From Fodinibius salinus (lineage in GTDB: Bacteria > Bacteroidota > Rhodothermia > Balneolales > Balneolaceae): a DNA stretch of 64,000 nucleotides. The stretch is from assembly GCF_008124865.1 (NCBI RefSeq), contig NZ_VNHY01000005.1, positions 1-64,000 of the forward strand. The letters run 5' to 3'. The position numbers were made by a program, and so were the translations under genes. Shown here piece after piece: positions 49,753 to 53,782 of the stretch (position 1 is the first letter of the stretch; every line of letters begins with the position of its first letter). The notes under the pieces were generated by a model. The model did no database searches. It worked only from the letters and a program-made list of their open reading frames with translations, and was not told the DNA's origin.

Positions 49753-52700
49753 TTAATTTAGCGGACGGGCCAGAACAACAGGTTTTTTGAAGGCTTTATC
49801 TTTACCGCTTGCGCTGTCAAAGGCTTCAAAAACAACAATATAGATACCAATACGGTTACGCCCGCCATCATCTTTGCGGCCATCCCAAATAAGCTGTCCC
49901 GAGAAACCGGCTTGCTTGCCGTCCGCCAGTTCTTTGACCAGACGCCCATATCGATCGTAGATACGTACCTTAATAAGATAATCTTGTTGGTCGAGCGTAT
50001 AGTTGATAAACAGGTTGTCTTTATCGCCGTTACCGTCTGGAGTAAAGGGATTGGGCGAAAAGCTAATACCGGTTTCAGCGGGTGGTTCAGATTGGGGCTG
50101 AAAAATAGAGTTTTCACTGTTTGGTGTTCCGCCTTTGGGATTAACACTTGATCCCCAATTTGTTTTATCATTGCTGGTCCCTTCAGGTGATATGCGTTCC
50201 AGGGCAATGCCGCGCGTGTCAATCAGGTTTGGGTTTTGCCACGATTCATCATAGAATACCGAATCGATATTAGCGCCTGTGCTGTCGGCAATGTAGATGG
50301 CATCGTCATTGGAAGCTAAGCTCAGTGTAGTGCGGTCAATGCGCATTAGAGAACGTTGCTCGGGGGTAGAGATATCAAAAAAGTTGGCAACATTACTTTG
50401 TTTAAAAGTGGTGGTTTTATCAGCATAGATAAGTACATGGCCACCGGCGGGGACCCATTTGGCATTACTGCTGACGGGCACGAGTTCACGAACAACGCCG
50501 TTTTCGTCGGGCTCATCATGGAGTACAAGCCCTTCTAGCGATACGGCTGATTCGCTTGCATTGCGCAATTCAATATATTCGCTTTGATCCGGTTGGTTAT
50601 CATCAGACTCATCCAGCGGATTATACATTATCTCGTTGATGACAATATTTTTTTGATTGGCCGAAATGGACTGGGCTATCGGAATTTCGGTGCTGTTGGT
50701 CGTATTACCGACAAAATCGGTTAGGTTTTGGATAGTGACCTTTGCAGCCGCGCCTGTTGATTTAGACTGTCCACCATCCAAAATAATGCTATTGGCATTA
50801 ACAGAATCATATTCAGCTACTTGCAATTTTTGTCCACCGGATTGAAAGCTTAGACTCTGTGTAAGTTGGATAAACTCGTTGAACTGTACTTTAATATTTC
50901 CACCGGGTAGTGTTTTTGAGAAGACCGCTTCGGGTGGTGTAGTGTCCGGTTGGAGGCTGGGATTTTCAACGCCGGCTGAGAATCCATTGTTAGCTGTACT
51001 GGTTTGCCAGTTTGAGGCATCGTTGGAAGCAGCACTGGGGTCTATTCGTTCCATGGATGTACCTTCCTGGCTACCGCCCCAGGTTGTGGCATAACGCAAC
51101 GAGTCTATAGATTCGCCATTAGAGTTTTTTAGTTGTACAATATCTCCGCTGGAGTTATTAAAAGCGGGGAATCCGCTTAGTTGTATAGCATTAGGGACAG
51201 AATTAGCAAAAACAGCATCTCCGGTAACAACAAGATACTCATTTGCTTTAAGCTGCGTATTTGCCGGAATGGAAGAAGTACTGCTGGCATCGCTTATGGT
51301 CCAGTTACTAAGATCAAAGTTCTTGTCGGTAGTATTGTAAAGTTCTACAAAATCAGCTGTTCCCTGATCATCGGGATTATATAACACCTCATTGATAACA
51401 ATATCGCGGGATAGTGCCTCATCAATTTTTAAGAAATCAAAGCTACGGGTGGCACCGGATAAAGTATTGCCAAATATATCAGAGATATTTGAAGCCGTAA
51501 CGTCGTATGATTCCCCATCGGTAAGCGGAGAACTTAGGACAAGTGTTACACTGTCGTCCTGCGCTGAAACAAGCTGAATTTTTCGGTTTGGCGTAATTTG
51601 ATAATTGCTGCTATTGGTAGCAGAAGAGGCCGTTATAGGTTCAGAAAAGCCCAGCCTGAGTGTTGTCTCATCCACAGCAAACAAATCCGTAAAAAAGGGT
51701 GGAGTATTATCAGAAGGGATTTCATTAGTAAGGCCCGGTGTGCCACCTAGGGAACTTGGAGAATCCCCCCAGTTGGCTTGCATGGTAGCTGGGGCTGTAT
51801 CAGAACGACGCTCCAAGGCAATATTTTCGCCGCCCCATTCGTCAGTATATCGTAACGAATCGGCCTGTGTACCACTGCTGGTATTGATTTGAACAACATC
51901 TCCGCCATTGTTAAAGCCTGCCAGCCCGCCCATGCTAACGTAGGCACGATTACCAAATTCGTTAAAAAGAGAAGAGGTATCAGCCGAAACTACCAAAAAA
52001 CTGTCAGGCCGGAGGGTGAGATTGGAGTATGATATTGTACTTGTGCCTCCGTCATCACCCAGCTCCCAATTTTGTAGATTCAAAAACTTGGAGGAGGTGT
52101 TTTTAAGTTCTATGTATTCTTGCCGCCCGGTGGGGGGATCGTATCTGAATTCATTAATAATCACATCGCCTTGTGCAAAAGCTCCAAAGATGACAAACGA
52201 AGTTGTGGTGTTGGCTGCAATGGTGTTACCGTTTTGGTCATCTACGTCATTTACGGTGACCGTATATTCATCGCTGGGGAAGTTCGTGCTTCCATAGTCA
52301 AGCCGTACGGTGGTAGTGTTTGGGAAGGTAACCGAAGAGGTGGAGGGGGTGCCGATACCGTTATCAATACTAAAATCGGAAGCATCTACGGTAGATTGGT
52401 TATAACCTCGATTGAACGTTACATCTACTTGGCTGCCGCTAACCGAAGCTTGGGTAACATCAAAAGGAGGGAGGTCAATTTTGAAGTCCATATAAAACTT
52501 GTCGGAGCGTGTTGATGTAAAATTTATACGAGGACCCAAATAAGAGGCATTAGTATGTGTATTATCGGTTCCTGAAATGTTGGTGTTATAAGGTCCTCCA
52601 TAGTTGTCAGAAACTTCCATCTGCCAGTTGCCGCTGCCATCACGATTTACACGCACAGTATATGTACCTCCGGACTGGACAACCGTGGTGCCCGTAAGTA

Positions 52701-53127
52701 CTGTGGCGGCTTCACTGCCACTGTCGTACCGCACAATCTTAAAGAAGTCATTGCCGCTTTCTCCAACCTGCACGGCATAGCCGTTGACTGCACCTTCGAG
52801 ATCAGCAATATCACTCATTAAAAATATCTCTGCTTGGTTCGATCCTGACGGTTCAAAGCCACGAAATTCAATATAAAATGTCCATGTTCCGTTTACATCG
52901 GTAGAAGGGGTTGTTAAATAAGCCGGACTTGTAGATGCATTTAGCTGAAGCAAAAAGTTAGGTGAATCGTCAACAACGGTAAATTCGCTGTCCTCGCCGC
53001 TCCAAGTAGGATTGTTTGTAAAATCCTCGTCCTCAAAACCGTCCTCAAAATTTGTTTGTGCGAAACTGTTGGCCGTTATGAAAAAAGCCGACAGTATTGT
53101 CACAAGAATCCGAATACTTTTTCTCAT
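49753..53127 (-). CDS. Secreted protein with three lamin-tail domains and FlgD-like C-terminus
   Basis: A 1124-residue exported protein (signal peptide ending in SFAQ). After an N-terminal jelly-roll-like region come a Big_5-type Ig unit and lamin-tail domains at about residues 320-440, 575-690 and 825-970. Each opens with an INE-(F/V/I) strand and a (Y/D)P turn and carries the EYIEL-type core; Ig-like units lie between. The last ~105 residues (NPFTPDGNGD, YDRYGRLVKEL, WDGRKDDGG) form a FlgD/CHU_C-like domain, as used for sorting or anchoring by the type IX pathway. It is probably a cell-surface or released protein. Its upstream region contains a structured RNA candidate with a terminator. 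Confidence 0.8.
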   Translation of the reverse strand: MRKSIRILVTILSAFFITANSFAQTNFEDGFEDEDFTNNPTWSGEDSEFTVVDDSPNFLLQLNASTSPAYLTTPSTDVNGTWTFYIEFRGFEPSGSNQAEIFLMSDIADLEGAVNGYAVQVGESGNDFFKIVRYDSGSEAATVLTGTTVVQSGGTYTVRVNRDGSGNWQMEVSDNYGGPYNTNISGTDNTHTNASYLGPRINFTSTRSDKFYMDFKIDLPPFDVTQASVSGSQVDVTFNRGYNQSTVDASDFSIDNGIGTPSTSSVTFPNTTTVRLDYGSTNFPSDEYTVTVNDVDDQNGNTIAANTTTSFVIFGAFAQGDVIINEFRYDPPTGRQEYIELKNTSSKFLNLQNWELGDDGGTSTISYSNLTLRPDSFLVVSADTSSLFNEFGNRAYVSMGGLAGFNNGGDVVQINTSSGTQADSLRYTDEWGGENIALERRSDTAPATMQANWGDSPSSLGGTPGLTNEIPSDNTPPFFTDLFAVDETTLRLGFSEPITASSATNSSNYQITPNRKIQLVSAQDDSVTLVLSSPLTDGESYDVTASNISDIFGNTLSGATRSFDFLKIDEALSRDIVINEVLYNPDDQGTADFVELYNTTDKNFDLSNWTISDASSTSSIPANTQLKANEYLVVTGDAVFANSVPNAIQLSGFPAFNNSSGDIVQLKNSNGESIDSLRYATTWGGSQEGTSMERIDPSAASNDASNWQTSTANNGFSAGVENPSLQPDTTPPEAVFSKTLPGGNIKVQFNEFIQLTQSLSFQSGGQKLQVAEYDSVNANSIILDGGQSKSTGAAAKVTIQNLTDFVGNTTNSTEIPIAQSISANQKNIVINEIMYNPLDESDDNQPDQSEYIELRNASESAVSLEGLVLHDEPDENGVVRELVPVSSNAKWVPAGGHVLIYADKTTTFKQSNVANFFDISTPEQRSLMRIDRTTLSLASNDDAIYIADSTGANIDSVFYDESWQNPNLIDTRGIALERISPEGTSNDKTNWGSSVNPKGGTPNSENSIFQPQSEPPAETGISFSPNPFTPDGNGDKDNLFINYTLDQQDYLIKVRIYDRYGRLVKELADGKQAGFSGQLIWDGRKDDGGRNRIGIYIVVFEAFDSASGKDKAFKKPVVLARPLN

Positions 53128-53197
53128 CTCCGCATATCAAATATTTAATTTATCTTAGGATAACAGAGGAGGGCGTGAATGGCAAAAAAAGTAACAT

Positions 53198-53233
53198 AAA
53201 AAAAGGGTGAAGTTGGATTCAACAACTTCACCC
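53198..53233 (-). terminator. Intrinsic terminator upstream of the LTD gene
   Basis: On the minus strand GGGTGAAGTTG pairs perfectly with CAACTTCACCC (11 bp, 7-nt loop), followed by seven T residues. It lies about 70 nt before the start codon of the LTD protein gene and just after the nested hairpin at 53251-53316, so it ends a short upstream transcript. Confidence 0.85.
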
Positions 53234-53320
53234 CGGAAGGACATTTGATATTGCTCTCTATTTCAACGGCTTAACGCATTTAAGCGTTTCTGTTAGTAAG
53301 ACCGTTGCGAGAGCAAATCC
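53198..53320 (-). ncRNA. Candidate structured leader RNA or small RNA
   Basis: On the minus strand a three-level nested hairpin is followed by an intrinsic terminator. Helix 1: TTGCTCTC/GAGAGCAA (53309-53316 with 53251-53258). Helix 2: CAACGG/CCGTTG (53302-53307 with 53264-53269). Helix 3: AACGC/GCGTT (53284-53288 with 53273-53277). All are perfect, with asymmetric internal loops between them. AAGGA before helix 1 can also pair with TCCTT after it. The pattern fits a riboswitch-like attenuator of the LTD gene or a ~120-nt sRNA. I do not recognise it as a known family. Confidence 0.45.
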
Positions 53321-53386
53321 TTACAAATTTTTTTGATTTTTTTATTATCATCGTTGGTAAATCTAATTCTTACCTAAAAAAGAAAA

Positions 53387-53782
53387 ATGAATATTGCTAA
53401 TAGTCCATCTATTCCTTTTACCATTCCTGATATTAATCATGGTTTAAAGCAGGCCAATGGATTGTTCAAATTGTGGAAGGGGGGATTGGAGCTAGAATTT
53501 GAAGAGAAGTTTCTGGGCGTTTTTGATACATCCGGTGTCCAAACTGTTCGAATCTCTTATGGTGACTTACAGGACATTAGATATGAAAAGGGATGGTTTA
53601 GCGACAATATTACGTTCGAAGGACATTCAATGAAAGTATTTGATGAAGTTCCGGGCACTGATATTGCTACTTGCACGCTTACCGTTAAAAAGAAGAACCG
53701 AAAGGAAGCACGTAATTTAATATCTCAAGCCCAGGTGCAGCTCTCAGAACGAAAGCTGGATCAACTGGATGAGGAGGATTAA
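53387..53782 (+). CDS. Hypothetical protein, PH-like
   Basis: A 131-residue cytosolic protein I do not recognise. A run of strands (LELEFEEKFLG, VQTVRISYGDL, DIRYEKGWFSDNITFEG, TCTLTVKKK) ends in a long helix, which resembles a bacterial PH or GRAM-like fold. No signal peptide or membrane helix is seen. It stands alone between divergent and convergent neighbours. The function is unknown. Confidence 0.6.
   Translation: MNIANSPSIPFTIPDINHGLKQANGLFKLWKGGLELEFEEKFLGVFDTSGVQTVRISYGDLQDIRYEKGWFSDNITFEGHSMKVFDEVPGTDIATCTLTVKKKNRKEARNLISQAQVQLSERKLDQLDEED

Follow-up and report, generated by a model that had tools for sequence, protein, structure and literature searches.

Genes and features at the locus

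The window analysed here is the 64,000-nt stretch of Fodinibius salinus DNA shown above, and its genome is referred to as G000. On the minus strand, between a gene for a secreted lamin-tail-domain protein and a divergent gene for a conserved protein of 131 aa, positions 53198-53320 contain three stacked helices of 8 bp (TTGCTCTC/GAGAGCAA), 6 bp (CAACGG/CCGTTG) and 5 bp (AACGC/GCGTT), followed by an 11-bp hairpin (arms 53205-53215 and 53223-53233) and seven T residues (53204-53198). A sequence-only reading had described these elements as a nested-hairpin RNA with an intrinsic terminator ahead of a start codon; all of them lie where it placed them, and the ATG of the lamin-tail gene follows 70 nt past the terminator. 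For the 131-aa protein, a Pfam search returned no match; in several genera, a second gene similar to this one sits beside it.

Judged from the window sequence alone, the block folds better than shuffled versions of itself (z = -6.66), as do its nested part (z = -4.59) and its terminator (z = -5.40) taken separately. Across orthologs, the terminator is conserved as a structure, whereas the nested part is not. Searching Rfam with the block at gathering and at permissive thresholds returned no family match, the best sub-threshold hit being an unrelated plant snoRNA (E 0.055), and the RNA described below was therefore placed in no existing family.

Table 1 Features at the locus, with positions in the window.
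Feature	Position	Strand	Remarks
Conserved 131-aa protein gene	53387..53782	+	Divergent from the RNA; 28/30 loci
A/T-rich tract, UP-element-like	53326..53352	-	Upstream A/T bias general over 93 sites
-35 element TGTAAGGA	53318..53325	-	Shared motif
-10 element GTCTTAC, 15 nt past the -35 element	53296..53302	-	Shared motif; spacer contains the 5' arms of helices 1 and 2
Predicted small RNA, ~95 nt	53198..53291	-	Covariance model R1 matches 53197-53293
Small 5' hairpin AACGC/GCGTT (helix 3)	53273..53288	-	Weakly supported; sequence varies between species
UUGA...UCAA element enclosing AGAGAGC	53245..53266	-	In other genera a strong hairpin there, with covarying arms
Linker AUGUCCUUCC, core GUCCUUC, proposed seed	53235..53244	-	Core common to almost the whole family
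Intrinsic terminator: 11-bp stem, 7-nt loop, seven T	53198..53234	-	Covariation
Promoter-like TTGCCA-N17-TATCCT between terminator and lamin-tail gene	53157..53185	-	6/12 genus loci (TTGCCA-N17-TATYCT)
Lamin-tail-domain secreted protein gene (LTD, Big_5, type IX sorting domain)	49753..53127	-	Downstream neighbour

The block begins in a promoter motif of competence and recombination genes

Searching 58 relatives with the block recovered the syntenic locus within the genus. Its first ~58 nt (53345-53288) additionally matched many other places, which share the sequence TGTAAGGAwT-N13-GTCTTAC at fixed spacing. At the locus, this motif occupies minus-strand positions 53325-53296. We take its two-box layout with an A/T-rich upstream tract to be that of an ECF sigma promoter, and the site is predicted to function as one. 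The T-rich tract on the plus strand, which had left the sequence-only reading uncertain about orientation, does exist and corresponds to the A-tract directly upstream of this promoter; the minus-strand orientation it favoured is correct.

Allowing at most one mismatch, the motif occurs 193 times in 12 Fodinibius genomes, as compared to a single occurrence of the reversed control, and 13 times in G000. Both boxes served as the search pattern for an alignment of 93 sites, which revealed, besides the boxes themselves, an A/T-rich upstream tract, a pyrimidine-rich spacer ending in AAnGG, and a T followed by A-rich sequence downstream of the second box. The two boxes, at fixed spacing, are thus common to many promoters of the genome.

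Inspecting the genes behind these sites in G000 revealed radC, recN, comM/yifB, ssb, a comEA-like gene and recA, with weaker matches ahead of comF and comEC, and further sites ahead of integrase, GIY-YIG and four-helix-bundle genes. Core genes of competence or recombination lie behind six of the 13 best sites, which a rough hypergeometric estimate places at <1e-9, assuming 2000-2800 genes of which 10-20 are competence or recombination genes. The association recurs in relatives: the motif lies ahead of ssb in G001, G002, G003, G006, G010 and G011, of comM in G002, G003, G004, G006, G010 and G011, and of comEA, comEC, comF, recA, recN and radC in several genomes. Given that the RNA's promoter matches those of DNA-uptake and recombination genes, the ~95-nt RNA is probably switched on together with them.

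The same motif marks a candidate regulator. In all 12 genus genomes, it begins (with 0-2 mismatches) a few nt past the stop codon of the same ECF sigma gene (orthologues of C2:458444-458986 in G000), where, in G000, it precedes a gene for a TPR/membrane protein. None of the other sigma genes of G000 has the motif within ~1.5 kb at up to three mismatches. Guilt by association thus suggests that the adjacent ECF sigma gene drives the regulon. Reading through this locus (L044; G000 C2:457650-458990), the sigma gene and the motif are followed by a protein that combines a short N-terminal domain with a transmembrane segment and TPR repeats and is possibly an anti-sigma factor.

A predicted short terminated RNA is conserved within Balneolaceae

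From the usual distances between -10 element and start site, we infer transcription to begin at ~53291 (range 53289-53293), which would give an RNA of ~95 nt that ends at the terminator. Fourteen orthologs align from just past the -10 element through the T run. Of the 11 pairs in the terminator stem, 8 have changed on both sides, and none of 500 shuffles matches the covariation score. Two distant orthologs, each of which folds a stem of its own, are misaligned at this position. The intrinsic terminator proposed from the sequence is therefore genuine. The segment AAGCCGUUGAAAUAGAGAGCAAUAUCAAAUGUCCUUCC is nearly invariant across most of the genus.

A covariance model built without the promoter returned the RNA in 46 of 128 genomes of the order (that of the window and 45 others), nearly always once per genome and spread over 11 genera, all of them Balneolaceae. 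We read 16 of the new loci, leaving out weaker matches to the model; every one of them has the promoter, with three mismatches at most, as compared to one match in 81,744 background positions. The RNA of other genera follows a plan of a strong hairpin with covarying arms (the arms being taken from predicted folds), then the GUCCUUC linker, and finally the terminator, whose loop is conserved. Linker and terminator loop (U[UG]GA) are better conserved than the stems. The linker, invariant in its core, is predicted to be only partially accessible (mean unpaired 0.36-0.81). By eye, loop and linker share 4-6 nt of complementarity, from which a pseudoknot might form. By sequence, then, the RNA possesses a promoter and a terminator of its own. 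A small open reading frame starting at AUGUCCUUCC was discarded as it is not conserved, with an early stop in other genera and loss of the ATG in locus L143 and genome G011.

Further short transcription units share the promoter. Loci L018 (G005 C2:336916) and L021 (G008 C11:63577), from two species, encode short terminated RNAs with a AAGCCGTTGA...AGAGAG segment, also given as AAGCCGUUGA...AGAGAG. They lie at unrelated loci, where no gene follows directly on the same strand, and are apparently paralogues of the window's RNA. Another short RNA behind this promoter, found in L048 from 1501 (G000 C2:806119 onward), L177, L203, L220, L230 and L253, comprises a conserved CTnTTCATTAAGAnAGA and then a G/C-rich terminator; it lies upstream of recN in G000, G002, G003 and G010. 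A possible third small RNA is marked in L184 (G002 C2:1146882 onward) by a motif site followed by a hairpin and a T run, with no gene start nearby. Genes for related ~233-aa proteins follow motif sites at a distance of 110-250 nt in L182, L204, L228, L233 and L235, the leader in L182 and L204 containing ATCAAGAGATGCCTT.

Alternative readings of the locus

The sequence-only reading had offered two interpretations, an aptamer with a terminator or a ~120-nt sRNA, of which the latter survives, at ~95 nt. An aptamer or riboswitch made of the nested helices is very improbable, despite the stable fold of the nested part in the window. Since the predicted start lies inside the nested hairpin, the 5' arms of both outer helices (1 and 2) fall in promoter DNA and are probably not transcribed. 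In the pairing AAGGA/TCCTT, once proposed as the alternative arm of a switch, AAGGA belongs to the -35 element. Across the 14 orthologs, pairing in helices 1 and 2 amounts to 75.8% as compared to 74.4% in shuffles, their 5' arms varying mostly without compensation and their 3' arms being nearly fixed; covariation lends these helices no support. We also replaced the native promoter by 92-93 other regulon promoters and compared the resulting folds. In 12 of 14 species, many of these promoters fold with the RNA at least as strongly as the native one; the native pairing is unusually good only in G000 (z -3.97), with a weaker signal in G003 (z -2.21), and the mean z of the 13 species other than that of the window is -0.33. 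On ortholog pair counts and promoter swap, the nested helices were rejected as a conserved RNA structure. Nor did the orthologs reveal covarying aptamer helices or a pairing that competes with the terminator, the consensus fold being the terminator alone, and Rfam holds no riboswitch that matches.

We favour, at a probability of roughly two in three, a stand-alone ~95-nt sRNA of the competence regulon that acts in trans through its GUCCUUC linker. The promoter motif with its regulon and the terminator can be read directly from the genomes, as can the fact that the RNA is conserved, and conserved together with its promoter; the start site is predicted, the driving sigma factor putative and the base-pairing action proposed. 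Counting against this account are the negative target searches described below, the failure to detect Hfq or RRM_1 proteins in the window's genome, and the constant presence of the lamin-tail gene, which lies downstream on the same strand in 30 of 30 loci examined, from many genera, and which a trans-acting RNA leaves unexplained. That adjacency keeps viable the main rival, to our minds rather unlikely, in which the RNA is a terminated leader (attenuator) of the lamin-tail gene: transcripts from the ECF promoter would mostly end at the terminator, and read-through would place the secreted protein in the competence regulon. Some loci indeed leave no space for a separate promoter, such as L142, where the T run lies about a dozen nt from the ATG. 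However, half of the genus loci have a promoter-like site between terminator and gene (Table 1), no alternative pairing is predicted for the terminator arm, and relatives of the RNA occur without a lamin-tail gene. The linker invites a different question, namely whether it pairs with mRNAs at all or instead, together with the terminator loop, binds and titrates a protein. The higher conservation of these two elements as compared to the stems would fit the latter, as would the outcome of two limited target searches: exact long antisense targets did not exceed control, and complements of the linker near start codons numbered 5, 8 and 14, versus 10, 10 and 14 in the control. The sole recurring linker complement fell inside an ABC-transporter coding sequence and was rejected. 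Yet no protein has emerged as a candidate, neither Hfq nor RRM_1 proteins having been detected in that genome, and we hold protein titration to be quite improbable.

Discussion

In the favoured trans-acting reading, the ECF sigma factor of the DNA-uptake and recombination genes would start the RNA at ~53291 and the intrinsic terminator would end it at ~53198, so that the RNA would be made during competence, alongside the uptake machinery. Its linker may then base-pair with mRNAs in trans and adjust them, with the AGCCGUUGA/AGAGAG segment as a putative additional pairing region in the genus Fodinibius.

SigX/ComX of streptococci are competence sigma factors, and the regulon described here resembles theirs in that an alternative sigma factor would jointly activate comEA, comEC, comF, ssb, recA and radC. 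It differs in having an ECF sigma gene next to a gene for a TPR/membrane protein, another motif, a Balneolaceae host, and small RNAs within the regulon. RybB and MicA of Escherichia coli are Sigma-E-dependent sRNAs of the envelope stress regulon. Like them, the present RNA is short, terminated, and behind an ECF-sigma-type promoter shared with protein genes of the same regulon; its sequence, however, is unrelated, the regulon concerns DNA uptake and recombination, and Hfq was not detected here.

Small RNAs have been linked to natural competence elsewhere. RocR of Legionella pneumophila base-pairs with mRNAs of competence genes, with RocC as its chaperone (PMC7973641); the Balneolaceae RNA shares this link to competence and differs in having the promoter of the competence genes themselves. 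The csRNAs of Streptococcus pneumoniae are under the response regulator CiaR and act on comC (PMC4507080). They, too, are conserved small RNAs tied to competence control; control by CiaR and action on comC belong to the csRNAs, and the comparison implies no sequence relation.

A literature search covering few subscription papers returned no paper on competence control in Balneolota, and none in which an ECF sigma factor runs a competence regulon; the silence on Balneolota is weak evidence of novelty. The locus also illustrates how a hairpin that catches the eye in raw sequence can turn out to be a promoter that runs into the start of an RNA.

Tentatively, and with the odds against so complete a picture, an ECF sigma factor of Balneolaceae might control competence, while the family-wide sRNA of its regulon and at least one further RNA, encoded upstream of recN in several genomes, might reprogram expression during DNA uptake without Hfq, via an exposed, anti-Shine-Dalgarno-like UGUCCUUCC linker. 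Now that a sigma gene has been named, along with a promoter motif and a conserved RNA, the regulation of DNA uptake in Balneolota becomes testable, for which the cultured type strains of Fodinibius halophilus, F. sediminis and F. salsisoli are suited.
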